This document shows positions 869 through 24,255 of a stretch of DNA of 24,255 bases, piece after piece. How positions within the stretch are numbered: position 1 is the stretch's first letter; each line of letters starts with the position of its first letter. The position numbers and the translations under genes are program-made. The notes beneath the pieces are model-generated. The model was not told where the DNA came from and made no database searches. It saw nothing but the letters and a program-made list of their open reading frames with translations. The DNA is taken from positions 1-24,255 of IMG/VR virus record IMGVR_UViG_3300044939_000143, one strand, 5' to 3'. Origin of the DNA: a virus.

Positions 869-1909
869 ATGGGAGCAGCTGGTGCAGTTGCTGCCGGCCT
901 TTCAGCCGTCAGCGGCATTGTTTCATATACAAGCCAACAAAAACAAGCAAGTGCCCAACGCAAAGCACTTGCTTCTCAACAACAACAACAACAGCTTCAG
1001 GCTGAATTGCAGTTGTTTGCCATTAGAAACCAACGCTTGATGGATTCTCTTCAAGATGCGTTGGTGGATGCGGCACAACGAACCTCTTATTTGCAAACAG
1101 ATGCTGCGCTTAGAATGCAAGAGCGGTTGAACGAACTTGCTGCTCAAAACGCCATATTTGCAAGCAACATAGAGCTGCTTAAATCTGGGTTGGAACAAAA
1201 ACAAAAACAACTTCAAGCAGCTGAGAAAGCAAGTGAGCGCCGCAAGGCAGCAGCAGAGGAGTTTTTGTCGACTTTGTCAAATGAGAACCAAGATGTGGAG
1301 ACCCTTGCTAAGATCATACTAAGCAACCTAGAAAAGGCTGATGACAAACGGGCAACTATAGCCACTCTATTAGATATGGGCGCAGCTTCTGGTGGCATAA
1401 ATGAGGCTCTTGTGGCTCTCTTAGATTCTGGTGCGTTTGATGTTCTAAAACAAACTCAATTGTTTCAACGAAAGCAGCAAGAAAGGGATCAACAAATTGC
1501 TGCTTCTCGTGCCATCAGAAACACTTTTGAAACGTTGGCTGATGTTGGTAAAGGGATTGAGTCAACTTATGCGGGCTTGTTAAGCACAGAGTCTGACTTG
1601 TCAGCCAAGTTGAACCAAATCAATGCAGCAGCATCTGCTGATTTGGCTCGAAGAGCGTTTGAAAGTCAACGTCTGGTAAATGACCAATCATTCAAATTTA
1701 ATCTGTTGGCCAACGACATTGCCCGACAAAGCCGGTATTTGCAAAACCGACTAAATGAGCAAGCAGTAAAAGCTGGTACTTCGTTGGCTTTGGACACACT
1801 AGAAGCACAAAAACAGGCTATAAGACCACCAGGGTTTTTTGACTTCTTGGCTATTGGCATGAATGCAGCCACTGCCTACAAACAATTCACACCACCGAAG
1901 TTAGTTTGA
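869..1909 (+). CDS. gp14-like internal virion (DNA ejection) protein
   Basis: A 346-aa protein that is probably the small ejection protein of the internal core, matching T7 gp14 in role. It starts with a short Gly/Ala-rich hydrophobic stretch (GAAGAVAAGLSAVSGIVSY). About 250 residues of Gln/Ala/Glu-rich helix with coiled-coil character follow, including a Gln run encoded by CAA/CAG repeats near 979-995. The C-terminus returns to a hydrophobic patch (FFDFLAIGMNAATAYK). T7 gp14 has the same hydrophobic N-terminus, helical middle and alanine-rich end but is shorter, 196 aa. The ATG at 869 is preceded by AAGGAG at 851-856. The next gene begins 7 bases after the stop, so the two are co-translated. 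The call rests on architecture and position, not on a motif. Confidence 0.65.
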   Translation: MGAAGAVAAGLSAVSGIVSYTSQQKQASAQRKALASQQQQQQLQAELQLFAIRNQRLMDSLQDALVDAAQRTSYLQTDAALRMQERLNELAAQNAIFASNIELLKSGLEQKQKQLQAAEKASERRKAAAEEFLSTLSNENQDVETLAKIILSNLEKADDKRATIATLLDMGAASGGINEALVALLDSGAFDVLKQTQLFQRKQQERDQQIAASRAIRNTFETLADVGKGIESTYAGLLSTESDLSAKLNQINAAASADLARRAFESQRLVNDQSFKFNLLANDIARQSRYLQNRLNEQAVKAGTSLALDTLEAQKQAIRPPGFFDFLAIGMNAATAYKQFTPPKLV

Positions 1910-1916
1910 GGAAACT

Positions 1917-4900
1917 ATGGTACTAAACAACAGATACTTGGGCAGCGATGAGGCAATTTATTTGCAACAAAAGGCAGGTAATAGCCTGTTTGAATCAGCC
2001 TTGTCTGCTGCCAATAAAATAAACGAAAGCACTCAAAATTATTTGGACAGTGCACTAAAAATTAATGAGCGCTTCATGCAGCTTTCGCAACAAAACGAGG
2101 CAGCAAAAGCTGTTTTGGGTTCAGCTCAACCAGGGCTGGCGGTTTTGGCTGATGCAGGCCTAAAGTACATGGCCCTAAAGCAACAACACGAGCAAGAGTT
2201 GGCTAAGATTAGTCTACAACTAAAACAACAACAGCTTAAAAAGCTGTTGGATTCAAATTATGAGCAAGCCACATCTCGTATTGGTCAGCTCATGCAAGAC
2301 TACATAGAAAGCGGGGCATTGTTTAGAGAAACTCAAACTGACAAAGGCGTTGTCACCGGCCCTCAATCGTTTAGAGAGTCTGCTTTGCGTGAGCTAACAA
2401 ATGTTGGTGAGCTTGATCCTGATGACAAAGTAAAGCTGTTAAACAAAATTAATGAGTTTGCCGAATCTGCGTCCAGAGAAAGACAGCGAAAATTAATTGA
2501 CGCTTTAGAAAAAAACAAAGCAGCAAGGGCTGATGCAATTGTTGCTGGCTTGGAACTTGATGTTGTTCCGTTGATTTCCAACATAAAGAAAGCAGGTGTT
2601 ACTCAGCAAGCTAAGCCCTGGTTGGATGCAATTAGTCAGCGTTTAAAAGATTTTTTGGCAGCAGATAATGGGCTAGAGGAACACGAGAAGCTTACTGCAG
2701 CTGCACGTGTATTGAGGCAAGCTGCCGATGCTTATGGAGTAAAGGTGGAAAACTATGCCCAATACAACGCTGACCTTGTCAACTTCCAAAACTTTGTTCA
2801 AGAATATTACAAGGCTAGGATGGAATACGTTTCCCCAGCCTCAAAAGACTATAACAACTACGATGTGTTTAAGACCAAGGTCGGTTTGGCTGCTATCAAG
2901 TACGGTGATTGGACCAAAAACGTTGCGCAAATAAACGAAGCAGACAAGCTCAAGATGGAGGCCATTGAGCTACAACGTGCACAACAACGTGTTCAAGAAG
3001 AGGTGGTGAAGTCTGCTGGTATGCGCTTCCCATTCTCAAATGCTTGGTCTGTTTGGGTGGCTGCCAGTGCTATCAGCAACCCGTTCTTTGCAGCATCAAT
3101 ACAAAACTCTGAGTTTGGTGACAACCCTGCTACTAAAAATGGGCTATGGTTGGCTGAAGAGTATAAAAAGTATGAGAAAGATTTGACTGCACTACAGACT
3201 GAATTAGCTGGCTTAAACATTGATTTTTATCGAATGGATTTAAGGCGGGTAGATTCCATGTCTGCTGTGTTGAACAAACTGGCTGAGCGCAACACAACAG
3301 GTCAGCTATCGCCTGCTGATTTGGAGTTTCTTAACCAGCTTCAGCAAAATGCACCCGAACTTTACGGCATTTTAGCTTCCAAGCTAACCAATCCTCAACA
3401 GTCTTTAGACGTTGGTGCGCTAAGGCGGGCTCTTGATCTTGAGCAAAATGCCATTACTAGAATTCAAAACGCCATAATAGACAAACAACGCACCAAACAA
3501 GCTGAATTGAGGGCAAGATATGCTCACCTAGCACAAGCTGGGTTGCTGGTAGACCGTACCCAAATTGCCAAAATTGCACAGCAGTATAAGGCAGCTGCTG
3601 AAAAAGAGCTTTCAGAGGCCAACAAATTCGCCAATGAGTTAAAAGCACGGGTTGTTGTGCCACAGTTCTATGGTGTTCCACCAAATTTTGATGGCTCGTC
3701 CACGTATGCACCCGACGTGGACGCAAGCGGTAGGGTGCGCGTTGCACCTCGTGCCAGACTTCAAAACTTGCGTGTTGGAAATAACACAATAATCACGCCT
3801 GTTTTGGCTGGTGCAAATGCCCCAATCACCAGCCAATTTGGTGCTCCAAGACCGTCTAATAGGCGACACGCAGGTGTTGACTTTGGTGTTGAAGGCAATG
3901 AAAGAGCTGTGGCTCTTGTTGGCGGTGTTGCCTATGTAGGCAAAGCAGATGGTTATGGCAATTTTATTGACATCATAGGCGACAACGGCTTTGTATACAG
4001 GTATGCACACCAGCAAGCTCTTGTTAAGTCTGGACAAAGAGTGCAACCAGGTGAGCCAATAAGCTTCAGCGACGGTTCTGGCATAAACATTGGAGGTAAG
4101 CACTTGCATTTTGAAGTACGCAACAAAGCCAATTTTGATAGCAAAGGCAACTATGTTCCCTCCTTTGGCTGGGATGGTGTTGTTGACCCAATTGAGCATT
4201 TAAGAAGGCTAACAATCAAAGACAGTAACGTTCTTAAACCCAGATCAATTGGTGCTTTGTTTGCTCGCACCCATCCTTGGCTGAAAGCAAGTCCAAACAG
4301 TTTCTTAACACCTCAAGGAGCCATGCAAGCAAATGTTTTTCAAACGCCTACTTCCCAACCACAACCTGCAACCAATGTGTTCACGGCGCAACGCCCATTA
4401 AATAGAACTTATTTGCCCTTCACTAGAGGCAACGTCCAATCATATGATTATAATGACGACTACAACTACGCCATCCTTCGTAAAAACCCAACCTGGCGTA
4501 GGGCTTTGGTAGATGCTGCTCGTGCGCTAAAAATACCGGCTGTTTGGTTGGCCGACATTATTCAGCAAGAGACCAGTTGGAATATTCACAAACGCCATGG
4601 CGGCAGAATTACGGGCATAATCGGGTTTGATGACCCAACTGCTGGTGACAAGCCTTTTGAAACACAGGCCAAAATGGTTGTTGACTACTACAGAAAAGCT
4701 GGTTGGTTTGATGTTTTGCGTAAGAAGGGACCAAACGCCAGCATTGCTGACTTTTGGATCTTAACCAGAGCAGGTACTGTGCCTCTTCGCAGCCTGGGAG
4801 GCAAAAACATGCGTCAGTACATAATCGATGGCGGAGATCCATTTAAGCTGCGCATGAATGACACAGGCACCACGTTTGGGTATGAGCTTCAGCTGCTTGG

Positions 4901-5072
4901 TAAATGGGCTGGCAGACGCTACAACATCCCATACTCAGGTGGTGTCAACAGCAACTACAGAATAAGCAGGAACAAGGCTGTTTCGTTTGACTATCACCCC
5001 CATTGCAGCATTTGTAATGAGCTCCTGCTTTCTGGTTCATGGGTTCATCACCAACATGACAACACAATCTGA
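1917..5072 (+). CDS. Large ejection protein with M23 peptidase and lytic transglycosylase-like domains
   Basis: A 1051-aa virion protein predicted to enter the cell envelope during DNA ejection and open the peptidoglycan, in the role of T7 gp15/gp16. Residues 1 to about 600 are helical and coiled-coil rich. Residues about 625-765 form an M23 (LytM-type) zinc endopeptidase: His651 and Asp655 in RHAGVDFG, a YAH motif, and His729/His731 in HLHFEVR, which is the full metal-binding set. Residues about 860-1010 look like a lysozyme/transglycosylase fold, with Glu885 in IIQQETSW as the likely catalytic acid. T7 gp16 has only the transglycosylase domain, so two cutting activities here is a notable addition. 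The last 25 residues hold a Cys/His cluster (HCSIC then HHQH). The start is set by GAGG, which overlaps the stop of the upstream gene. Confidence 0.85.
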   Translation: MVLNNRYLGSDEAIYLQQKAGNSLFESALSAANKINESTQNYLDSALKINERFMQLSQQNEAAKAVLGSAQPGLAVLADAGLKYMALKQQHEQELAKISLQLKQQQLKKLLDSNYEQATSRIGQLMQDYIESGALFRETQTDKGVVTGPQSFRESALRELTNVGELDPDDKVKLLNKINEFAESASRERQRKLIDALEKNKAARADAIVAGLELDVVPLISNIKKAGVTQQAKPWLDAISQRLKDFLAADNGLEEHEKLTAAARVLRQAADAYGVKVENYAQYNADLVNFQNFVQEYYKARMEYVSPASKDYNNYDVFKTKVGLAAIKYGDWTKNVAQINEADKLKMEAIELQRAQQRVQEEVVKSAGMRFPFSNAWSVWVAASAISNPFFAASIQNSEFGDNPATKNGLWLAEEYKKYEKDLTALQTELAGLNIDFYRMDLRRVDSMSAVLNKLAERNTTGQLSPADLEFLNQLQQNAPELYGILASKLTNPQQSLDVGALRRALDLEQNAITRIQNAIIDKQRTKQAELRARYAHLAQAGLLVDRTQIAKIAQQYKAAAEKELSEANKFANELKARVVVPQFYGVPPNFDGSSTYAPDVDASGRVRVAPRARLQNLRVGNNTIITPVLAGANAPITSQFGAPRPSNRRHAGVDFGVEGNERAVALVGGVAYVGKADGYGNFIDIIGDNGFVYRYAHQQALVKSGQRVQPGEPISFSDGSGINIGGKHLHFEVRNKANFDSKGNYVPSFGWDGVVDPIEHLRRLTIKDSNVLKPRSIGALFARTHPWLKASPNSFLTPQGAMQANVFQTPTSQPQPATNVFTAQRPLNRTYLPFTRGNVQSYDYNDDYNYAILRKNPTWRRALVDAARALKIPAVWLADIIQQETSWNIHKRHGGRITGIIGFDDPTAGDKPFETQAKMVVDYYRKAGWFDVLRKKGPNASIADFWILTRAGTVPLRSLGGKNMRQYIIDGGDPFKLRMNDTGTTFGYELQLLGKWAGRRYNIPYSGGVNSNYRISRNKAVSFDYHPHCSICNELLLSGSWVHHQHDNTI

Positions 5073-5088
5073 TGCGGGTTAGATTATC

Positions 5089-7827
5089 ATGGAAAATCGT
5101 ATTAAACCAAAGCTCGTTGTTCAGGAACCAGACACTCCTGAAATAGCCTCGTTTGCTGGTCTTTCTTCTGCCACAACAAACCAAGGCACTGATTCTGTGT
5201 TTTTGGACAAGCAAGTAAATGCTGTTATTACCTCCACAGGAGAGCTGACTCCCCGCTTTGGCAGCAGGGTAAAAGGCATTTTATCTTCTGTGTCTGGCTC
5301 TTGTAACGTGTTTCAGTTTCAGTTTGAATCTCGCAATTACTTGCTGCTCAAAACTGGTGTTGACTTGGCTCTTTATCTAAAAGACAACAACGGTAGGTTA
5401 AGGTTTGTTGCCTATAAACCCAGCGTCTTCAGAGATGAAAGCGCTGATGAAGAGCCTTCGTTTTCTGCTTTGGTGGAAAACAAAAGCTGCTTTGTTTTGA
5501 TTGCCACAAAATCTACTCCCTTGTTGTGTTTTTGTTTGATTTCGCTTCGCGCATCAGTTGGTTCTATTTCCAACGGTGGCAGTTCATTGTCGCTTTCGTT
5601 GAGTGTGTTTCCCAATAACAACAACACCATCAACACAGGCAACACAATCATTGTGTCTCCAACTGGTGCTATTCACGTTTTAACCAGCATGACGCAAACA
5701 GGTGCTAACGTGGCACTTACTTCATCTTCTCCATTTGACTGGGTACAAGTGGGTAACACCATTAGTTTCCATTCCTGTTTTTGGTTTTGGTGTGCAGATG
5801 CCAATTACTACCCAGGCAATTACTTGTGGAATTCTGCCGTTCGAAAAAATCAATTGCCAATAGATGTTAACGTGGCTGTGCCTCAGCCTTTGTCTGCCAA
5901 TCCTATAATAAATGAAAGCGACATTCTAGATGATTACACAAGTTATTGGTTTATTGTTTTTAAAAACAACAGCAACCCAGCAGATGTTTTTAATTTCAGG
6001 GGAGACAGACAACCAGCAACTGCTGACGAATGGTGTCAGTCTGATGGTAGTTACATGCCTGGAAGAGGTATGAAGTGCACTCAAACTCCTTTTTTTATTT
6101 CGTTTGGAGCATTGGAGTCTGGTGGCCAACCCAGCACAGTTCTTATTGGAAGAGGCAGACGCATCTTGTTGGGTAATGGTAATGGAGTTCCTGTTGAGCA
6201 TGTTCTGGTTCGTGTTGATAAAAATCCTGTTGACTTCCCCACTTTCTTTACCAACACTTTATGGGTTACGTCTGGCATAGCTCATGCTTTTGCTGTTATA
6301 AATTACGACCCATCTTCTTCTTGTTTCAGAAACCCAGGTGTGGATTCTTCAGCAGTTGTTGAACTAATTTTTTCCCGCCCATTTAAACCCGGAGCGTCAA
6401 CTTCTGTTGTTGATCTAGAACCAAACCAGTCTGGTACAATAAATCTTGGTGATGGTTGGATTGTGCCCCTCTACGGATACAACTACATTGCCAACACACT
6501 AGACCACAAGTACCCACACATTGTGTCTTCAATTGGCCAACGGTTGGTCTTGACTGGTTTAAACAACAAAGTGGCGTTTTCTCACGCTGATTGGCAATAC
6601 CGCGGCATTTCATGGAACAATTTCCAAGTTAGCTCAATTTCATTTTCTCCCTCATCTGCTTACGTTGTTTCTATTCGAGAAAATTGTTCCAAAGTAATTG
6701 ATGTAAAGTCTGTTTTTGGTGTGCTGGTGGTTGCGACGGACGTTGGTATTTTCCGCATTAGCGGCGAATCCTCAAGCTCCCCGCCTTCTGCGTCTGTTGC
6801 CAACACCGTCATTGTCAGTCGTGAGATTGTGCCTTCAACCTCCTCTTTTGTTCTATACGAAAACAAGCTCTTTTACATAAGCCGCAACGGCCTGTTTATT
6901 TTGGAGTACAATCAAAACATACAGGAACTAGAAAACATTGTTTTTTCACCCCACGTTAGCGACTATTTTGAAACCAAATCTCCAAAATCTTTGGTTTGGT
7001 CAAACACCTTACAAAGCTTTTTAGTTGGCTTTGGCGGTACCTTGGATTTGCTTCAGCTGAGTGTTAAGTCGCTCACGTGGTCTTCAATACGGCTTGCCAC
7101 TTCTTTGGCGCCCAACCTAAACACAAGTTTTGATGGCTTCACTCTTCTCACCACTGCCACAACTGGGTCTGGCACCCAGTCTGCCATTATTTTGTGTGAG
7201 TGGGACCGTGTTGATAGGGACTTGGAGGGCATCACCAGCTGGAACAGCCTTCTAAATGTGCAATTGCCTGGCACTCAGGTCACTGTCTACAACACTCCAA
7301 CTGATGTTTCTGACCTTGTCCTTCCTTCTGCCCTTGTTTGTTCCCTCAACCCCAATTGTGTGCAAGCACATGGTCCCAACCACGCCCGTGTTGTTGGAGC
7401 CAATCAGGTGCTCTTGGTTGAACACTCTGGCGGTATGGTGCCTTTGCCCATTGTCTCTGCCTTTGTTACCAAGGCGTTTACCAGCGACAGACTCAACAGG
7501 GCCAACCGCATCCGAGGCTGCAATTTGCTCCTTCGTGGCCGTGGCACCATTTCCGTCCGCCTTGTCTTACCTGTTTACGGGTTTGATGATAGGTTGGACG
7601 AACTTACCACATGGGTCGTTGGCTCCCCTTCTCAGCATGCTGGAGAGGGCCTTTTAAATGCCGCATTTGCTGTTCGTCTAGCACCTGGTGACACAACCAA
7701 CCTCCGTGTTGGCATGGTGGGGCATGCCGAGGCTTGGCAATTGGCCTGTGTTTTGTCTTCTGGCCTGGCTGTTGCTGGGCTTCAGTTCGATACCAGCCGC
7801 AAGGGACTGCGCCGCACCCGCTTCTAA
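5089..7827 (+). CDS. gp12-like tail tubular protein B (tail nozzle)
   Basis: A 912-aa beta-rich protein predicted to form the tail nozzle below the adaptor ring, as T7 gp12 does (794 aa). The strongest match is the central stretch around residues 480-565. There GQRLVLTG, VAFSHADW and NNFQ, followed by a strand-rich part ending GIFRISGE, mirror the T7 gp12 pattern of an Arg-Leu/Phe-Gly line, a Ser-Arg line, NF and a final gif.isG segment. The N-terminal region has TPRFGSRVKG and DLALYLKDNNGRLRF, similar to the opening of gp12 proteins. The gene starts 16 bases after the ejection protein with no clear Shine-Dalgarno, so it may depend on coupling. It is the last plus-strand gene before the opposite-strand island. 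Confidence 0.78.
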   Translation: MENRIKPKLVVQEPDTPEIASFAGLSSATTNQGTDSVFLDKQVNAVITSTGELTPRFGSRVKGILSSVSGSCNVFQFQFESRNYLLLKTGVDLALYLKDNNGRLRFVAYKPSVFRDESADEEPSFSALVENKSCFVLIATKSTPLLCFCLISLRASVGSISNGGSSLSLSLSVFPNNNNTINTGNTIIVSPTGAIHVLTSMTQTGANVALTSSSPFDWVQVGNTISFHSCFWFWCADANYYPGNYLWNSAVRKNQLPIDVNVAVPQPLSANPIINESDILDDYTSYWFIVFKNNSNPADVFNFRGDRQPATADEWCQSDGSYMPGRGMKCTQTPFFISFGALESGGQPSTVLIGRGRRILLGNGNGVPVEHVLVRVDKNPVDFPTFFTNTLWVTSGIAHAFAVINYDPSSSCFRNPGVDSSAVVELIFSRPFKPGASTSVVDLEPNQSGTINLGDGWIVPLYGYNYIANTLDHKYPHIVSSIGQRLVLTGLNNKVAFSHADWQYRGISWNNFQVSSISFSPSSAYVVSIRENCSKVIDVKSVFGVLVVATDVGIFRISGESSSSPPSASVANTVIVSREIVPSTSSFVLYENKLFYISRNGLFILEYNQNIQELENIVFSPHVSDYFETKSPKSLVWSNTLQSFLVGFGGTLDLLQLSVKSLTWSSIRLATSLAPNLNTSFDGFTLLTTATTGSGTQSAIILCEWDRVDRDLEGITSWNSLLNVQLPGTQVTVYNTPTDVSDLVLPSALVCSLNPNCVQAHGPNHARVVGANQVLLVEHSGGMVPLPIVSAFVTKAFTSDRLNRANRIRGCNLLLRGRGTISVRLVLPVYGFDDRLDELTTWVVGSPSQHAGEGLLNAAFAVRLAPGDTTNLRVGMVGHAEAWQLACVLSSGLAVAGLQFDTSRKGLRRTRF

Positions 7828-15154: not shown

Positions 15155-16264
15155 ATGCCACTATTCAACACAGACAACAACACAAACTACAATCTACAGG
15201 CCACTTACCGAGGCGACACATACACCAAACAAAACATTGATAAGTGGATAAAGCAGCAATGGTCCACCATGGTTCGCCGCGAGCTAGATGCCAATCTGCT
15301 AATGCGGCAGTTTGTTATGAACCTAACTTTTCCGGATGGTCGTCACGGAGACACAGTTCACATTCCCACTCTAGGCAGACTTGGTGTGAACAAAAAGGAA
15401 CCTGCTGTGCCGGTTGAGTTGCAAAAGACCGACACTGACAGAATAACCATTCGTATTGACCAGTACAAAGAATGCTCTTTCATGATAGAGGATATTGTGT
15501 CTATCATGTTAGACCCAAGCGGGTTGTTGGCATCTAACTTGGCCAAGGAAGCCGCATATGCCATAAACCGAGACTTGGAGTCCTATTTGCTCGGTCTAAG
15601 AGCAATCACCAACAGCTTACCAAACCAAGTTGTTTGGTGTACAAGTGACGGCCAAAACGGCGGCAGTTCTGTTTCAAAACCATTTAATATTGACTCGTTT
15701 TTGAAAGCCAAGCTGATATTGGACCAAAACAATGTTCCGGCAGATGGAAGAGTGCTGATAGTAGATCCTGTGCAATATTCCCAATTGCTAGCATTAGATA
15801 AAGTGCAAAGCATGTTCTACCGAACATCTGCTCCATTAGAGAATGGCGTAGTTGGCACTTTACTTGGTGTTCCTGTGTACATGAGCTCTTTAATGCGAGC
15901 AAACGCAGATACAGGCTACTTTATCAAGCCTGGACAAACAGGACCCACGCCAGGAGTTGGTAACACAGGAAACAACCCGTATTTTCCCACCCAAGGGTCA
16001 CCCGCAACAATAACGGCTTTACCAACCACGTGGCAAAACACAGCTGGAAACACAGGAAAGAAAGCAGAAGTGCGCTCAGCCATTATGTTGCATCGCGAGG
16101 CGTTTGTTTTGGCAATGCTGCAAGAGCCCAAAACAGAGATGAGCCGCGAAACGCTTTACCTTGCAGATGCAATTGTGACCAGCACGCTGTATGGAGCACG
16201 TGACTACAGACCAGAGTGTGCTGTTGTCATTCACACAAACGGAGAAATTCCTCAAGTCGCCTAA
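15155..16264 (+). CDS. Major capsid protein (HK97 fold, T7-like)
   Basis: The 369-aa shell protein. An N-terminal arm (about 1-45) is followed by the segment that usually forms the spine helix and P-domain. RVLIVDPVQYSQLLALDK and the GVVGTLLGVPVYMSS line (about 215-248) are typical of T7-type capsids, where a G.(V/I)G...G..V..S pattern is well kept. After this comes a Gly/Pro/Asn-rich loop (about 262-295; GQTGPTPGVGNTGNNPYFPT) that is likely exposed, then the conserved end with YLADAIVTSTLYGARDYRPE. The length is close to T7 gp10A (345 aa). AGAGGT is well placed before the ATG, in keeping with a highly expressed gene. No frameshifted long form was found. Confidence 0.93.
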   Translation: MPLFNTDNNTNYNLQATYRGDTYTKQNIDKWIKQQWSTMVRRELDANLLMRQFVMNLTFPDGRHGDTVHIPTLGRLGVNKKEPAVPVELQKTDTDRITIRIDQYKECSFMIEDIVSIMLDPSGLLASNLAKEAAYAINRDLESYLLGLRAITNSLPNQVVWCTSDGQNGGSSVSKPFNIDSFLKAKLILDQNNVPADGRVLIVDPVQYSQLLALDKVQSMFYRTSAPLENGVVGTLLGVPVYMSSLMRANADTGYFIKPGQTGPTPGVGNTGNNPYFPTQGSPATITALPTTWQNTAGNTGKKAEVRSAIMLHREAFVLAMLQEPKTEMSRETLYLADAIVTSTLYGARDYRPECAVVIHTNGEIPQVA

Positions 16265-16270
16265 TTAGCA

Positions 16271-16858
16271 ATGAAACTGCTTGAGTTTATAAACAGCATA
16301 CTTGCCCTGGTTGGCGAGCAACGGCTCGCCTCCACCAGCGGCTCTCTTGGCACTTTAACAAAAAACGTGGCCCAATCTGCAGTTGTGAGTGTGGCAGCTG
16401 CAGTTAGGCCACAGCAGTTTGAGAAGTTGGTGGTGGTGAGCAACCAAGTTCAGCAATTGCCAGATAGTATTCTCCAAATCTTTTCTGTGTTTTTATCTTC
16501 ACAAGGGCAGTTGCTCAAGCTGTCGCAGCTGCCATTGGAAGCGTTGTCCACCAACGTTGGTTATGCGATTGTGGGCAACACAATGTACTTGAGTCCTCGC
16601 ATAGTGACAACGCCACTAGAAGTTAAGGTGCATTGTTTAGTTGTGCCCCAACTCCCCATGTCAGACGACGACGACGTTGGCATTGATTTTATACTGTTGC
16701 CGGCCATTCAGCACGTAGCAGCCAGCACACTATTGGTGTCGTATTTGGATGATGCCAACCAAGCTGCAATCCACAAAAACATTGCAGACCAACTGATAAT
16801 AACATTGAGAGGCACAACCGGTATAAGCAGAGGCCGTCAGTTCAACATCGGTGGTTAG
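16271..16858 (+). CDS. gp11-like tail tubular protein A (head-tail adaptor)
   Basis: A 195-aa protein predicted to form the adaptor ring between portal and nozzle; T7 gp11 has 196 aa. The start EFINSILALVGEQRLAS matches the gp11-type opening (V/I-N-x-I-L-A-x-I/V-G-E), followed by a helical stretch and a beta-rich centre (VGYAIVGNTMYLSPRI, LEVKVHCLVVPQLP). It follows the capsid gene by 6 bases. Its stop overlaps no other frame if the next gene starts at the ATG at 16860. The nozzle partner gp12-like gene is not next to it, as in T7, but about 8.4 kb upstream. Confidence 0.85.
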   Translation: MKLLEFINSILALVGEQRLASTSGSLGTLTKNVAQSAVVSVAAAVRPQQFEKLVVVSNQVQQLPDSILQIFSVFLSSQGQLLKLSQLPLEALSTNVGYAIVGNTMYLSPRIVTTPLEVKVHCLVVPQLPMSDDDDVGIDFILLPAIQHVAASTLLVSYLDDANQAAIHKNIADQLIITLRGTTGISRGRQFNIGG

Positions 16859-16859
16859 C

Positions 16860-17111
16860 ATGACAACAGACAACACAACAGGCAAATCGGGCTCTATTTT
16901 AACACTAGAAGACGAATTTTCAATTGCTTCAATGAACGCATTGTCAGACCAAATGAGCCGAGAGCAAGCAATTGAGTTTCTAAAGAAAGCATTTGCCCTT
17001 TATGTGACAACACGAAGGATGTTATTAGCCCACATGGAATCAACTTTACCAACGCTTTATGAGCATAATCAAAGACTACCAGAGGAAGAGGGCAGAACAA
17101 ACCCAACCTGA
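16860..17111 (+). CDS. nblA: NblA-family phycobilisome degradation protein
   Basis: An 83-aa protein with the signature of NblA, a small helical adaptor that binds phycobiliproteins and brings Clp protease to the cyanobacterial antenna. Residues 14-20 are LTLEDEF, like the L(S/T)LEQEF opening of NblA; 32-41 are MSREQAIEFL, like its MSREQAQ(E)xL centre; and a helix to Met59 follows, with two Arg at 52-53. The core is about 47 residues and the last 20 (TLPTLYEHNQRLPEEEGRTN) are extra. Cyanophages of freshwater hosts, such as Ma-LMM01 and PaV-LD, are known to carry nblA. Here the gene sits inside the virion operon between the adaptor and ejection genes. I chose the ATG at 16860 over a GTG at 16851. 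The 3' end overlaps the next gene by 53 bases. Confidence 0.8.
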   Translation: MTTDNTTGKSGSILTLEDEFSIASMNALSDQMSREQAIEFLKKAFALYVTTRRMLLAHMESTLPTLYEHNQRLPEEEGRTNPT

Positions 17112-20100
17112 GCTGCCCGTTTTAAAGCCACATCCTGTTGATGTGGATGTGATGCAGACAGCCCAACCAGATACTGAATCCAAACCAACCACAGAGCCAC
17201 CGCCATTGCCAGCACCAGAGCCAGGGTCACAAGAAGAGCCTGGTTTGGCCGTGAGTTTGGATCAGCCTGTGTTGCCACTGCAGGAGCCAGCGCCCACATT
17301 ATCATCATCTTCAACACCTTCTTTGTTGGCGGACCAGGCACTGATGGAGGCGTTGGAGCAGAATTCTGGTCCAATGCCTGGGAGCGCTGGTGCACCTTCG
17401 CCGCAGGAAATTGTGGACAAGGTAAGGCAAGTGTCACTGCCGTCTGTTTTGGTGGACATAGGACAAGAATTTGGAGACTCACGAATTTATGCGCCAGAGA
17501 TTATCACTACAAAGATCCCAACAGTCTATAACACACTCGATACAAAAGGCACCTACGAGCTCATCAAGCAAGGATATGCTGGGATTAACGACGCGGCAAC
17601 CCGCCGATTTGCCGAGCGACAAGCAGCAGTTGAACAAGCCCAGCGCATCTTAGAAAACAGGGACAGGTTGTTGAATGTGCCAAGGGCTGATCGGCCTTGG
17701 CATGCAACTCCTGCAGAGACAGGCAGCAACCCATGGCTTGACATTTTGTTTGGAAAACAGGAAATACGGGATAGCAACAAGTTCTCTCCGAATTTAGACC
17801 CAAGAAAAGCATCCTATGGGCAAGCAGGCTCGGGTTTGCTAGGCGGCCTCAACTACCTTTTTGGGTTGCCTCTCAACACAATATTGGCTGGAGTTGGGGA
17901 AATAGCAGAGACACTGTCAAGAGCAGTTGAGTCGGGATTGGTGGCCAAAGAAAAAAAACAACCTGCTCAAGCAAGACCAGAAGCCAACAACGTGATTCAG
18001 AATTTGTTTGGTGGCTCATTGCGAGCAGTGTTGGAGGCAAACAAAGGAGCCCTAACAAGAACAGCTGCTGAAAATGCCAGAAACGAGGCCATACGGGCCC
18101 TAACAGCATCGGGCTACAGTCAAGCAGAAGCCCAGAAACTGGTGCCACAAGAAACCCAACAAGGGTTTTCAAGGGACGCAATTGAACGCATCAAAAAAGC
18201 CACAGTAGATGCATTGGTAGCCAAAGGCAAAACACGGGAACAAGCCCAACAACAAGTAAATGATTTGAGGCTGATGGACTATTTGCCCATAGTGGGCATT
18301 GATGTGGAAAAGGCCAGAAAGCGCAACTTGCTGGCCGATGCTTTGAGAGGAGCACAAACAGGGGACACAAACGACCCTCAAGGTGCCAACAAAGGCGTGT
18401 TGTTTGCACCAAGACGGAGACGGGCAGTAAAAGGAGCACCAGCCACAAGCTCCTGGAAGAAGTTTAGGCCAGTGCAGCAGTTTGCGAATGATGTGTTTGC
18501 AATTGCCAAAGACGACCCCATTGGCACCGGCATAGAAGTTTTTACTCAGTTGTTTTTAGACCCATTTGACCTGCTCATTGGTGACACCCTCAAATCAGGT
18601 TTGAGGAAGTTGCGCCAAGTACGCAAACGCCAAGCCACATCACAATTAGCTTCTCAAGCAGCCCAAGCAGCTGCTTCTGAAGCCAAACTTTCACAAACAG
18701 CTTCTCAAGCAGGAAAAGCAGCAGCAACTGCTGCACAACCAGTTTCACAAGCGGCTCAATCAGCAGCAACTGCTGCACCACCTCCACAATCAGTTTCAAA
18801 AGCGGCTCAAGCAGCAGCAGAAACTGCTGCACCACCCTCACAAGCAGCAAAAGCTGTGTCTCAAACAGGCCAATCAGCCACGGTTACTTCACCATTACCA
18901 TCAGCAAAATCAGCTTCTCAAGCTGTAGCAGGAGCAGGTGAGCAAGCAGGGCAGGCGGTGACAAAGGCAGTACAGGGGCAAGTGAGGCAAGTCCAGCCAA
19001 GAGCCAGGCAAATACCTGCAGTGGAGATGGAACAGCCAGTGCGGCTTGGGCCAGAGCTAAATAGAAGCAAGCCGATGAAAACCAAAGTGGCACTGGAGGG
19101 CACAACTGATGTCATAACACAAGAAGTGAGGCCAGTTGTCGGTGGCAAAACAAAGCTGCCGCCCAACTCACCAGCAGAAGTTGCAGCCAGTGTGGGCATT
19201 GGGAGAGCATCAAAAACCCCAATTGATGTGCCTGGCAACATTGTGTTGAAGGGAGTTGACGATGTGCCAGGAGGGTTTCTCAGGGCCCGCACAGACGACC
19301 TTTTGGAAATTGCCGAACAATTGGCAGCCAATAAAGCAGTGGTGAACGAAAACCTCAAGCTGCTTGATGAGATGTTCAAAACAACCGTTGACTTTGGACG
19401 CAAGTCCATTGACAGGGTGCCGTATTCGGAAATAACCCCAGCCCAAGTAAAGCGGATAATAGAAACAGGCGGAAAATTGAATTTGCCTCCAAAGTCGTTT
19501 AGGTTTGTTGACAGAGAATTTAGGCCCTTCATAATGCGGGGCGACTATGAGGGATTGGCCCAAGTTGGCGGTTTTTCAAAAGAAGGCGCGTTGGACATAA
19601 TAGCCGAAGAGCTTGCCAATGCCAACAACACAACATTGCGCTATGCACAACGAGTGTTGCCAGAAGACCAGATGGCACTTCGTGAACTTAATTTTTCGAG
19701 GAAAAAACCATTTCTGGCAAAATTGCCAACCACCCTTTACCACGGGACTGCCATTGCTGACTGGAACCCAAAATACAATCTAGAGCTGTTTGGCACAAGA
19801 GGAGAGCTTGGGTCTGGGTTGTACTTGATTGACAATCCAGAAAAAGCAGCCATCTATGCAAAAGCAATGGTGAATATAAACGTGTCACCAGAAACACTGT
19901 CGAGAAAAATTGAACCGGCTGTGTATCAGGTAAGGCACTCCCTTAAAACCCCCCTAGACGCAAGAGCAGAACTTAGGACAACGTCGGAATTTGTTAAGAA
20001 AATAATAAGTTCTTTGCCTGTGCCAATCAGAAATGCAATCAACCAAAAAACCACCATTTCGTTTGCCAGCATGATGGACCTCATTGAAGAAACGCTGGTA

Positions 20101-20586
20101 AAAACAAAACAAGACACATCGGAACAGTCACTTCGCAAGATAAGTGATGCAATCAGCGACGGCTTACGCGACGCAGGGTTTGATAGCGTGTATGACCCTA
20201 AATCCGGCATATTAATGGTCCTAGATGAGGCAAGAGTGGAGGTAGTAAACAAAAACATGGTAGAGCCTCCCAAAACACCAATGGAGGCCATTGTGGCTCG
20301 CTACAACGCCGACGCCTACTCAGCTTACCACTTCCCAAAGAGGCTGTCTGTGGACTCGAACTTACGAGACAGCGCTGCGAAACTACTCAACCAACTAAAT
20401 GATGCCATAGACACCAAATTGCAAAAAGTGCAGCAAGAACTGCTTAATAGGGGCATGCTACCACAAGACACACCATTGCCTCCAAAAGAAGCAGTTGTGT
20501 CTTCTAAACTTGATAAAGCCCCAATAACCGTAGAAGAAGCACTTAAGAACATACAAAATAGGAGCTCATCACCATGCCAACCTTAA
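17059..20586 (+). CDS. Large ejection protein with ADP-ribosyltransferase-like domain
   Basis: A 1175-aa protein in the position of a T7-like internal core protein. Residues 1-130 are Pro/Glu-rich. A hydrophobic stretch at about 260-284 (GLLGGLNYLFGLPLNTILAG) may insert in membranes, and 520-645 is an Ala/Ser/Gln low-complexity linker. Residues about 885-1070 resemble ADP-ribosyltransferases of phage polyvalent proteins: YHGT (His895), GSGLYLIDNPEKAAIYA (Tyr922), VYQVRHSLKTPLDA, and a final GFDSVY...LMVLDEARVEVVN segment. In related sequences the last motif has Glu before the aromatic residue; here that place seems to be Ile, so activity is uncertain. The likely role is modification of host proteins after injection, which is inference. 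The start lies inside nblA; no good Shine-Dalgarno is visible and coupling is probable. Confidence 0.75.
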   Translation: MSIIKDYQRKRAEQTQPELPVLKPHPVDVDVMQTAQPDTESKPTTEPPPLPAPEPGSQEEPGLAVSLDQPVLPLQEPAPTLSSSSTPSLLADQALMEALEQNSGPMPGSAGAPSPQEIVDKVRQVSLPSVLVDIGQEFGDSRIYAPEIITTKIPTVYNTLDTKGTYELIKQGYAGINDAATRRFAERQAAVEQAQRILENRDRLLNVPRADRPWHATPAETGSNPWLDILFGKQEIRDSNKFSPNLDPRKASYGQAGSGLLGGLNYLFGLPLNTILAGVGEIAETLSRAVESGLVAKEKKQPAQARPEANNVIQNLFGGSLRAVLEANKGALTRTAAENARNEAIRALTASGYSQAEAQKLVPQETQQGFSRDAIERIKKATVDALVAKGKTREQAQQQVNDLRLMDYLPIVGIDVEKARKRNLLADALRGAQTGDTNDPQGANKGVLFAPRRRRAVKGAPATSSWKKFRPVQQFANDVFAIAKDDPIGTGIEVFTQLFLDPFDLLIGDTLKSGLRKLRQVRKRQATSQLASQAAQAAASEAKLSQTASQAGKAAATAAQPVSQAAQSAATAAPPPQSVSKAAQAAAETAAPPSQAAKAVSQTGQSATVTSPLPSAKSASQAVAGAGEQAGQAVTKAVQGQVRQVQPRARQIPAVEMEQPVRLGPELNRSKPMKTKVALEGTTDVITQEVRPVVGGKTKLPPNSPAEVAASVGIGRASKTPIDVPGNIVLKGVDDVPGGFLRARTDDLLEIAEQLAANKAVVNENLKLLDEMFKTTVDFGRKSIDRVPYSEITPAQVKRIIETGGKLNLPPKSFRFVDREFRPFIMRGDYEGLAQVGGFSKEGALDIIAEELANANNTTLRYAQRVLPEDQMALRELNFSRKKPFLAKLPTTLYHGTAIADWNPKYNLELFGTRGELGSGLYLIDNPEKAAIYAKAMVNINVSPETLSRKIEPAVYQVRHSLKTPLDARAELRTTSEFVKKIISSLPVPIRNAINQKTTISFASMMDLIEETLVKTKQDTSEQSLRKISDAISDGLRDAGFDSVYDPKSGILMVLDEARVEVVNKNMVEPPKTPMEAIVARYNADAYSAYHFPKRLSVDSNLRDSAAKLLNQLNDAIDTKLQKVQQELLNRGMLPQDTPLPPKEAVVSSKLDKAPITVEEALKNIQNRSSSPCQP
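18721..18846 (+). repeat. Imperfect in-frame tandem repeat in the ejection protein gene
   Basis: Three unequal units, 18721-18762 (42 bp), 18763-18813 (51 bp) and 18814-18846 (33 bp), each begin GCAGCA(GA)AACTGCTGCA. They encode AATAAQPVSQAAQS-type linker segments. All units are multiples of three, so the frame holds while length can vary. Confidence 0.75.
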
Positions 20587-23500
20587 GGTGTCCAGCACCT
20601 CCTTCACCACCTCAAATGAACAACCTGCCAGGGTCTGCCATTGCGAAGCGCATAAAAGCGCACTACGAGGAGCTTCGCAAGCAAGCTGGTGTTTTGTCTT
20701 CCCATCACATAATGGAACTTAGATTGCAACACGATTATGCCATAAAGGCCCTTTCTGTTGCCCATCTTCCTGTGTTGAGAAACTACAGCCGCCTCGAAAG
20801 CTGGGTGGCCAAAAACCTGGGGTGGAAGAGCTGGCTGTGGCAAGCTCCCCTAGAGGCCATGACAGAAGCAGGAGCAGTGAGGTATGCACTATTAGACAGG
20901 GTTAACATGGCCAAGAACCTAATTGAAACTGCCGCCATTTACAAAGCCCTCCCTGACATTGACAAACTCTATAAGGAGCTAAAAACCGCACTGCCTTTGA
21001 TGCCAGAATATCAACTGCAAGAGCTGGTTTATGACCACATAATAGTGGGCCAATATCCCAAGCTATACAACGTTATTGACTCCCCAGTTGTTCGCAATCA
21101 ACTAATAGCTCGTTACAACAAACACATTAGCAAGCTAACCGATCTTGGTGTGGACACAGAAACAATTCGTTTATTAGACCGCTTAAGCGGGCGCATAAGC
21201 GAGGCCTATGACAACCTGCGCTATATTGCAGCCAAAGAAGGGCTGTCGTTGGAAACGCTTAAGAACGGCGGTTATTTTCCATTGCAAGTTCAAGAAGAGG
21301 CAAAAAAGCTTATCAGTGCATTTGCTGAAACAGTGAACCTAACTTCACCATCAAAGTCAATTGATGCCAACGAGTTTTTGTCAGCAACCAGATCCAGCAA
21401 TGTGCCTGTTGTGCTAAAGCCCTCCATCATGGCCACAATTCTTGGCATGCAAGAGCACGAACTAATTCAAATTGCCTCACAACCAGGTGAATTGTCTAGG
21501 CTGCTTAAGTCCAAGCTAAAGCCCGAGCAGATTGAGAAGCTGTTTGAAAGCGGGTTTTTGTCTCAAGCGCCTGCCATGAGCGACGAGCTGACTGAGTTTT
21601 TTCGCACTCAACTGGATTTGCCCATTCGCCACCTTGGCGAGGCTGTTGTGTTGGATCCAGTAAAGGCCATAAAGGAATATGCAGACCAGCTAAAGGATGC
21701 AGTGTCAAAATCCACATTAGTAAAAGATTTGCTAACAGAAGGCATTGAAAAAGGCTGGGTTGTAGATAGTTCATTTATCAACCAAAACACAAAGTCCTTT
21801 GTTAGGTTGTCATCATTGCCTGTGGTTAAAAAAGCATTTGAAGAAGCTGGTGTGCCAACAGAACTGCAAACGCTGTTTGTTCACAGAACAGTGGCAGACC
21901 AAGTAAGCAGCATATTGCAGCTCAACCAAAGCTGGGCAGACTTGGGAATGGTTGGTCAGTTTGTGCAAACCTTGGTTATTCCCTACACAAGAGTGTTTAG
22001 GAAAGCCGCCTTAATGGCTGCTCCAATAAACTACATCAAGCGAGTAATGCTGCAGAACGTGGTGGCACTGTATGCAGCAGCTGGCGACCTAAGCCAGCTC
22101 GGCATTGCAACTGCTGAAGTCACACGAGCATTTGTGCAAAAGAACCTGGACGTTTTTCCCAAAAACGTGACAGTAGTCATAGGCAACGAAAGCTACAGCC
22201 TCAAAGACTTGTTTGAAGCCACAATGCTTAAACGGGGAGGCGATTTTATAACTGCCATGGGCGAACGCATGGAACGCGTTCGGCACCCTCTAGAGCGGCT
22301 AAACACCAAGTCAATGCAAAGGTTTTTTGTGTTTAACAAGGCCTACCACGAAAAGTTTGGGTCGCCGTTCACTGGCAAAATACAAACAGCAGCAGAAATG
22401 CTAAAAGAAATGACCAAAGCCCCGTTTGATGCCGCTTATGCGGTATTGGCGGCAATAAACCAACACGCTGACTTTGCAGCACGGTGGGCTGCTGTGCGTA
22501 CATTGGCCCTAAAAAAGGGCAACCAATTTGAAAGCATTGACGATCTAATCAGACACACAGACGAGTTTTTTCAAATCAACATAGACACAGGAGTCGTTGG
22601 ACGCGTGTTAAGCAGCGTGGGCATGCCGTTTGCCTCATTTGCATTGGCTGCTCCTGGAGCAGCACTGCGCTACACGCTCATGTATCCGTGGCGTGCAGCT
22701 CGGATGCTAAAACTGTATGCCTATGCCATGAATGGCCAACACCTCACTGATGCTGAAATGGCGCAGTGGCAAAAGGACGATTATGTCATTGCCATTGCTT
22801 ATGACCCAGAAACTGGTAAAGCATATGGAGTCATGCCAACAAGCGTTGACTTTTACCTCTCAAGCTTTTCTTGGTTTCGAGAGCTCGCAGAAGACATTGG
22901 ACGCAGCATGGGCGCTCCCGTTGGCAGTGTAAAGGAACAAGTTGAACAACAGAAAAACCCTCTCAAACCGTTTGAAGACCTGCTAAAAGAATTTGCTTCC
23001 AAAACCTATGTAAGCACTTTCTTTCCCCTCATGGGCATAAATCCCGACACACTAGAGCCATTGGAAGGAGCTGCTGACGAAGACACTCTGCTTGGTGTGC
23101 CCATGCCACGGTCATTGAGAGAATTGGCAACAAGGGCGTTTCCGTTGCTAAAGTCAGCAGACGAAAAGTGGTTGCCGCCTTCAATTGTTGGACAGGCACA
23201 AAGAACATCACCCACCGGATGGGTGCAACAACAAGGACAACCAGGGTGGCTAGGGCGCACACCTTCGTTTGGAGGACGAAGGCAGCGTATGGAACCAGTA
23301 GAACCGTTTGGGTGGTTGTTTAGCAACCTAGGTGGTCTTACGTTGGTAGCAATTGACCCACAATCTAACATTGTGAAAACCTATGAGGATTTTGACAAAC
23401 TCCAAACCGACATAAGCAGCACAATCAACAAAATCAACAAACGACTGTTAAAAGAAGCTTCCACCTTGTCTGATGCTGACAAAGCAGCATTAGCAGACCA

Positions 23501-23702
23501 ACTAAACCAGTTTCTCCGGCTCAGGTTCTTGTTGAAATACAACAAGTTTTTGGTTGACAAATTGGCCCAAGAACGAGGGCTTGCCAAACCAAGCGCTCTA
23601 AAACTACTCCGCTCTCAGTTTACAAACTCAATAAAACCCAGCCAATTTGAAGACGCCAAAGAATTTATAAAACACTACATTAACAACGAAAAAGGACAAT
23701 GA
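20574..23702 (+). CDS. Large internal virion / ejection protein, unknown fold
   Basis: A 1042-aa, mostly helical protein following the ART-like protein. By size and place it is a core or ejection protein; its sequence does not show the T7 gp16 transglycosylase motif, which is on the 1051-aa protein instead. Two stretches are notably hydrophobic and amphipathic, about 460-505 (VIPYTRVFRKAALMAAPINY) and about 681-719 (MPFASFALAAPGAALRYTLM). They resemble helical segments of the large polyvalent-type proteins that phages inject and could form a membrane conduit. The last 150 residues are helical and charged. The ATG overlaps the upstream gene by 13 bases and has AGGAGC in good place. The stop TGA overlaps the next ATG (ATGA). 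Confidence 0.7.
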   Translation: MPTLRCPAPPSPPQMNNLPGSAIAKRIKAHYEELRKQAGVLSSHHIMELRLQHDYAIKALSVAHLPVLRNYSRLESWVAKNLGWKSWLWQAPLEAMTEAGAVRYALLDRVNMAKNLIETAAIYKALPDIDKLYKELKTALPLMPEYQLQELVYDHIIVGQYPKLYNVIDSPVVRNQLIARYNKHISKLTDLGVDTETIRLLDRLSGRISEAYDNLRYIAAKEGLSLETLKNGGYFPLQVQEEAKKLISAFAETVNLTSPSKSIDANEFLSATRSSNVPVVLKPSIMATILGMQEHELIQIASQPGELSRLLKSKLKPEQIEKLFESGFLSQAPAMSDELTEFFRTQLDLPIRHLGEAVVLDPVKAIKEYADQLKDAVSKSTLVKDLLTEGIEKGWVVDSSFINQNTKSFVRLSSLPVVKKAFEEAGVPTELQTLFVHRTVADQVSSILQLNQSWADLGMVGQFVQTLVIPYTRVFRKAALMAAPINYIKRVMLQNVVALYAAAGDLSQLGIATAEVTRAFVQKNLDVFPKNVTVVIGNESYSLKDLFEATMLKRGGDFITAMGERMERVRHPLERLNTKSMQRFFVFNKAYHEKFGSPFTGKIQTAAEMLKEMTKAPFDAAYAVLAAINQHADFAARWAAVRTLALKKGNQFESIDDLIRHTDEFFQINIDTGVVGRVLSSVGMPFASFALAAPGAALRYTLMYPWRAARMLKLYAYAMNGQHLTDAEMAQWQKDDYVIAIAYDPETGKAYGVMPTSVDFYLSSFSWFRELAEDIGRSMGAPVGSVKEQVEQQKNPLKPFEDLLKEFASKTYVSTFFPLMGINPDTLEPLEGAADEDTLLGVPMPRSLRELATRAFPLLKSADEKWLPPSIVGQAQRTSPTGWVQQQGQPGWLGRTPSFGGRRQRMEPVEPFGWLFSNLGGLTLVAIDPQSNIVKTYEDFDKLQTDISSTINKINKRLLKEASTLSDADKAALADQLNQFLRLRFLLKYNKFLVDKLAQERGLAKPSALKLLRSQFTNSIKPSQFEDAKEFIKHYINNEKGQ

Positions 23703-24255
23703 CCAAACCAATTGTGTTGCGATTAACCAACAAAAGCGGCACGTCATTTACCATAGACGTGACAGCGCTCCAACTTAGCGACAACCTCAGCGAGCGTGAC
23801 TTTTATGTGCTTCACAACGGCGAAGACAAAACCAACCTCTACACAAAAACCAGTCAAACAACCCTAACCTACAATGGACCAAACGTGGCATCTGGAACCA
23901 TCATCCAAACGGCTAGGCAAACAATTGTGCAACCAGCTGATGTCACCTTTCTTTCTGTGTCAACAGCAGCTGATTTGACACTGGCATTAACCAAACTAAA
24001 AAAAGCTGCAGAAGAAATTGAAGCTCACACCAACTTTGTTATTGACCAATTAAATGCAGGCAGCATTAGCTTGCGACCTTCACCAGTCATAAATGAAGCC
24101 TATGGAAGCAGTTGGGATGGAGACACAATATCTGCCCCTAGCCGCAACAGCGTGTATCAGCGCCTAAATCAGCTCTTTACTGGCTCAAACCAACTCACAG
24201 GCACCTATGACATAACAAGTGGCTCTGTGTTGGTTCCAACTCAAGCTAATTCAAA
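23699..24255 (+). CDS. gp17-like tail fibre, N-terminal part (3' end outside window)
   Basis: The frame starts at the ATG overlapping the previous stop (ATGA) and is open for 185 codons to the window end. The N-terminus matches the T7 gp17 tail-attachment domain in pattern: a beta-rich opening (LTNKSGTSFTIDV), then RDFYVLHNGEDKTNLYT, LTYNGPNVASGTIIQTAR, QPADVTFLSVSTAADL, and a helix (LKKAAEEIEAHTNF) in the place of the coiled-coil neck. This domain fixes the fibre to the tail; the receptor-binding part would lie beyond the window. The gene is the last of the visible late block. Confidence 0.82.
   Translation, partial: MTKPIVLRLTNKSGTSFTIDVTALQLSDNLSERDFYVLHNGEDKTNLYTKTSQTTLTYNGPNVASGTIIQTARQTIVQPADVTFLSVSTAADLTLALTKLKKAAEEIEAHTNFVIDQLNAGSISLRPSPVINEAYGSSWDGDTISAPSRNSVYQRLNQLFTGSNQLTGTYDITSGSVLVPTQANS

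Follow-up and report, generated by a model that had tools for sequence, protein, structure and literature searches.

The window, by which is meant the whole 24,255-nucleotide stretch of viral DNA analysed here, carries a conserved gene of the NblA family within its virion operon, an assignment drawn from sequence and profile comparison. The normal role of NblA is to make the host break down its light-harvesting antenna, and phage nblA is usually explained as sustaining photosynthesis or freeing nutrients. What is new in the window, as read from the alignments, is a split in conservation, where the ClpC-side half of the protein is host-like and the phycobiliprotein-side half is diverged, yet conserved among the phages. 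The product is probably a divergent NblA-type protease adaptor that is made with the virion proteins and acts late on the antenna. The features concerned are as follows.

10819-12630, + strand: terminase large subunit (phrog_38)
12654-14420, + strand: portal/head-tail connector (phrog_332, E 4e-59)
14473-15135, + strand: scaffolding protein (phrog_19777)
15155-16264, + strand: major capsid protein (phrog_267, E 4.6e-54)
16271-16858, + strand: tail-tubular-A/head-tail adaptor, 195 aa (PF24175 SU10_adaptor, 34.2 bits, cut-off 27)
16860-17111, + strand: nblA-family gene, 83 aa (PF04485, 33.3 bits; reciprocal profile matches)
16899-16994, + strand: conserved N-terminal half of NblA, residues 14-45 (17/32 identical to best host NblA)
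16995-17054, + strand: diverged C-terminal half of NblA, residues 46-65 (2/18 identical to best host; LKHQWG absent)
17059-17111, + strand: 53 nt shared by the nblA 3' end and the beginning of the ejection-type gene
17059-20586, + strand: ejection-type virion protein, 1175 aa, with a weak ADP-ribosyltransferase-like segment (PF18760, below cut-off)
20574-23702, + strand: virion protein, 1042 aa (phrog_19395, annotated tail fiber; host specificity)

The nblA frame begins with ATG, has no internal stop and includes LTLEDEF and MSREQAIEFL, from which the earlier note had recognised NblA and suggested a profile search. That search upholds the assignment, with Pfam PF04485 matching at 33.3 bits (E 6.8e-8) against a curated cut-off of 25 bits and the next-ranked Pfam family falling under its own cut-off. 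Both N-terminal motifs, L-[ST]-[LMV]-E-x-x-F and S-x-[ED]-Q-A, are found in the window protein, and its homologues within the lineage also score above the PF04485 cut-off. In the reciprocal direction, a profile built from the window NblA and its phage relatives retrieved NblA from 93 genomes of a 292-genome cyanobacterial sample and, among PDB sequences, matched Anabaena NblA (1OJH, E 6e-11). The NCBIfam NblA equivalog (NF045916) did not match the window protein at E 0.01, PHROGs profiles did not recognise the gene, tblastn with the NblA of the window and of a related contig (L029) gave zero matches among annotated phages, and an initial phage-profile scan of genome contigs gave zero confirmed relatives. 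The AlphaFold model comprises two helices (residues 16-31 and 34-71) with mean pLDDT of 81-96 through residue 60; this short model matched no PDB chain with Foldseek and VIA-align. The frame is under purifying selection: pN/pS between the window and its relatives L002 and L003 is 0.36-0.39, with dS near saturation, and dN/dS between L002 and L003 is about 0.2.

NblA contacts ClpC via an N-terminal motif and phycobiliproteins via a C-terminal motif (PMC4103541); a literature search found no usable residue-level NblA binding study. In an alignment that included 44 sequences from hosts, each half of the protein was compared with the best-matching host NblA. The identity of the window protein is 17 of 32 residues (about 53%) at positions 7-38 and 2 of 18 (about 11%) at positions 39-58, and NblA of the second subclade described below has 17/32 and 4/19, respectively. 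For the N-terminal half, dN/dS from the window to L003 and L002 is about 0.11-0.15. At position 51, where hosts have F, L, M or I, and position 53, where they have K or R, the window has H and E and its relatives E and A; the canonical phycobiliprotein-binding marks (hydrophobic-51, basic-53 and LKHQWG) are absent from the window protein. The adaptor half is thus retained and the cargo half altered. Loss of the basic residue as a phage-only trait was ruled out. An initial host sample, in which the best matches were over-represented, had K or R at position 53 throughout, and a wider sample gave exceptions, since one member of some tandem pairs of host NblA also lacks it. Consequently, the claim is reduced to a diverged C-terminal half for which the sample holds no host match.

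It is unlikely that this NblA is a late, virion-coupled Clp adaptor with a rewritten cargo half that hands different or narrower host proteins to the protease during assembly, or that is carried in the virion. Rather unlikely, too, is a retargeted adaptor which keeps the ClpC-docking half but whose new C-terminal half brings to the Clp protease a different host protein or only a single class of phycobiliprotein. The disparity between the halves would be accounted for, as would the conservation of the C-terminal half among the phages themselves, where LYVxTR(R/K) is kept, up to 11 of 20 residues are identical between clades 1 and 2, and dN/dS is 0.2-0.4. It would also fit that, when a clade-2 protein was queried against a 386-genome cyanobacterial sample, all alignments among the matches listed end by residue 48 of 54. 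However, two phages with nblA in the same slot, L025 and L029, have a more host-like C terminus (for L025, 16/32 and 14/20 identical to the best host in the N- and C-terminal halves), and the tandem-pair host proteins imply that loss of basic-53 need not alter the target.

The window belongs, by its capsid tree and its terL, portal and capsid tree, to an uncultured cyanobacterial virus lineage related to Saffermanviridae and separate from it, the window clade forming its own branch with support of 100/100. The order tail-tubular A, nblA, ejection protein recurs in L002, L003, L004, L018, L022, L023, L024 and L029, and L025 has nblA in the same slot behind an inserted gene. These nine nblA-bearing contigs comprise the window subclade (L002, L003 and L004), a second subclade (L018, L022, L023 and L024) and two deeper branches, so the placement is no accident of one contig. 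A further contig of the second subclade (L019) ends inside nblA. In L026 and L027 there is no nblA at the slot and the tail gene directly meets the ejection gene; as many of the relative records are fragments, nblA may lie elsewhere in these two. A reading of L026 and L027 as clean nblA loss, taken from the capsid tree, was dropped because the three-gene tree, on which nblA presence and absence needs a minimum of one change, leaves the fork open; loss and never having gained the gene are both compatible with that tree. Being so short, the NblA gene tree neither dates the acquisition nor names a donor. A 38-kb relative contig (L233) has at its end (2-286) a short tandem repeat, ADMHSQRRHAFATQTCIRN repeated, which is perhaps an assembly edge or a terminal repeat.

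The + strand of the window reads terminase, portal, scaffold, capsid, tail-tubular A, nblA, 1175-aa protein, 1042-aa protein and fibre, bearing out the placement of nblA between adaptor and ejection genes described in the earlier note; the tail-tubular-A orthologue in L003 matches phrog_10775, a tail protein. The nblA ATG lies 1 nt past the stop of the tail-tubular-A gene, and across the two window-side subclades this junction is a 1-nt gap or an overlap of 4, 8 or 11 nt. A promoter scan of the + strand from 15193 to 19508 scored no sigma-70-like site, which, the scan being crude, is weak evidence. Replication genes lie upstream of nblA on the same strand, so the border between early and late genes is not sharp. 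For the late function also claimed for nblA, the support is the operon anatomy (same strand, tight 5' junction, no promoter-like site); from this layout, nblA would be expressed late.

Elsewhere in the window, a perfect sigma-70 promoter (10239-10211, - strand; TTGACA-17-TATAAT with TG) stands in front of the minus-strand genes from 10175 to 8109, which encode an HNH endonuclease, a 198-aa protein apparently made of two copies of one domain and a 162-aa protein whose tail is rich in Asp, and which are possibly an early operon. The inserted gene of L025 (12415-12939), between the tail gene and nblA, likewise encodes an HNH endonuclease. Its presence at this junction would suit a view of nblA as a passive resident that entered between tail and ejection genes by chance, with no regulatory meaning and its timing set by an unrecognised internal promoter or by processing of the transcript. 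The tight 5' junction seen in both window-side subclades, the lack of a promoter-like site and the use of the same slot across the whole clade argue against this view, which is quite improbable.

As the earlier note had it, nblA overlaps the ejection-type gene at its 3' end; the overlap measures 53 nt. The N terminus of the ejection protein, M(S/T/G)LI..xQ/R-K, is common to the nine nblA-bearing contigs and two without nblA, which indicates that the overlapping start is real. Moreover, because this N terminus (MSLIND.Q.K and variants) is alike with and without nblA, the 3' end of nblA seems to run across a start that was already there, with the tail residues of NblA probably by-products of the other frame. 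The overlap is 38 nt in both L002 and L003, 29 in L025 and 44 in L029. In L018, L022, L023 and L024, a 14-nt gap separates nblA from the ejection gene, whose start is preceded by a Shine-Dalgarno-like AGGAGG, whereas in the window subclade the ejection gene starts within nblA and no such AGGAGG is present, making translational coupling from nblA to the ejection gene possible there. Short overlaps are frequent in this operon, occurring also between 17059-20586 and 20574-23702 and between the latter and the gene at 23699. The proposal that nblA is hard to lose without damage to its neighbour is not supported by these comparisons, as the second subclade keeps nblA without a 3' overlap, which therefore cannot explain retention there, and L026 and L027 have an intact neighbour start with no nblA.

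The L025 orthologue of the ejection-type protein (13159-17319) matches Alt-like ADP-ribosyltransferase PHROGs; the match of window 17059-20586 is sub-threshold. Proteins with ADP-ribosyltransferase segments are of a kind injected by some phages, and the ejection-type protein is a candidate injected host-takeover effector. That NblA is itself packaged, as a minor virion protein ejected with its large neighbours to attack the antenna at the start of infection, is very improbable, since its position between the tail gene and this large protein gene, conserved over a deep lineage, is offset by its lack of any seen resemblance to a virion protein and by its known role as a cytosolic adaptor.

Under the favoured reading of a late-acting adaptor, nblA would be transcribed by read-through along with the virion genes, and its translation would be coupled to the preceding tail gene, so that a small helix-loop-helix protein would be produced alongside the capsid and tail proteins. 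Host ClpC would be bound by the conserved N-terminal half and phycobilisome subunits by the C-terminal half, whose changes would suit the particular host of the phage, and the antenna would be dismantled during particle assembly. We infer the late timing, the ClpC docking, the targeting of the phycobilisome and a benefit in the form of amino acids and reduced photodamage; amino-acid supply for capsid synthesis is plausible. If antenna breakdown does serve capsid synthesis, a late payoff is expected, and with nblA fixed in the virion operon of a lineage the timing question becomes testable. The kept protease side and changed cargo side also provide a natural experiment for locating target choice within NblA.

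Saffermanviridae and their kin share homologous terminase, portal, scaffold and capsid with the window. In the annotated records of this group, tail-tubular B or small inserts come after tail-tubular A, a place taken in the window by nblA and the ejection gene. Their order of capsid, tail A, tail B, internal protein, peptidase and large protein does not recur in the window, where internal protein, peptidase and tail-tubular B lie upstream of terminase (869-7827), apart from the 15155-24253 block. The nblA gene sits at the junction where Saffermanviridae carry the internal protein, peptidase and tail-tubular B block. The 1175-aa protein weakly matches the large gene region of A-4L and Pf-WMP3, and a search for NblA across seven Saffermanviridae-type records (A-4L, Pf-WMP3, Pf-WMP4, LPP-1, TR020, PP and CHP58) gave no match anywhere.

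Cyanobacterial NblA (Anabaena 1OJH; S. elongatus 3CS5) resembles the window protein in L-S-L-E-x-x-F, M-S-R-E-Q-A, the two-helix hairpin predicted for the window protein and the profile match. It differs in being about 60 aa long rather than 83, in carrying LKHQWG and the 51/53 residues, all of which the window protein lacks, and in having no C-terminal tail running through the start of a following gene. Cyanobacteria made to express phage NblA, including a marine metagenomic one, lose phycobilin (PMC9602691). Marine cyanopodoviruses (S-TIP37 and KBS-P-1A; Nadel et al. 2019, as cited in PMC9602691) resemble the window in carrying NblA in a podovirus, although their nblA follows or overlaps an exonuclease gene and precedes ribonucleotide reductase, in the replication module; their NblA matches are weak, that of KBS-P-1A just below the PF04485 cut-off. 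In two uncultured phages, nblA lies near PhoH, thymidylate synthase and UvsX (L045, 136 kb; 5995-6180) or near a nucleotide kinase (L046, 146 kb; 5923-6207), and in the Planktothrix phage PaV-LD it adjoins thymidylate kinase. Among the phages examined, a sample of known phages, nblA amid virion genes was observed only in the window lineage. The Microcystis phage Ma-LMM01 also has an nblA overlapping a neighbouring gene, but that neighbour is nrdA rather than a virion gene, its NblA retains the basic residue and WGL motif that the window protein lacks, and its nblA was measured to be transcribed early (PMC4103541). In the window lineage antenna breakdown probably accompanies particle assembly, not early infection as in Ma-LMM01, and the late, virion-coupled nblA, its timing read from gene order, is most likely a real variant.
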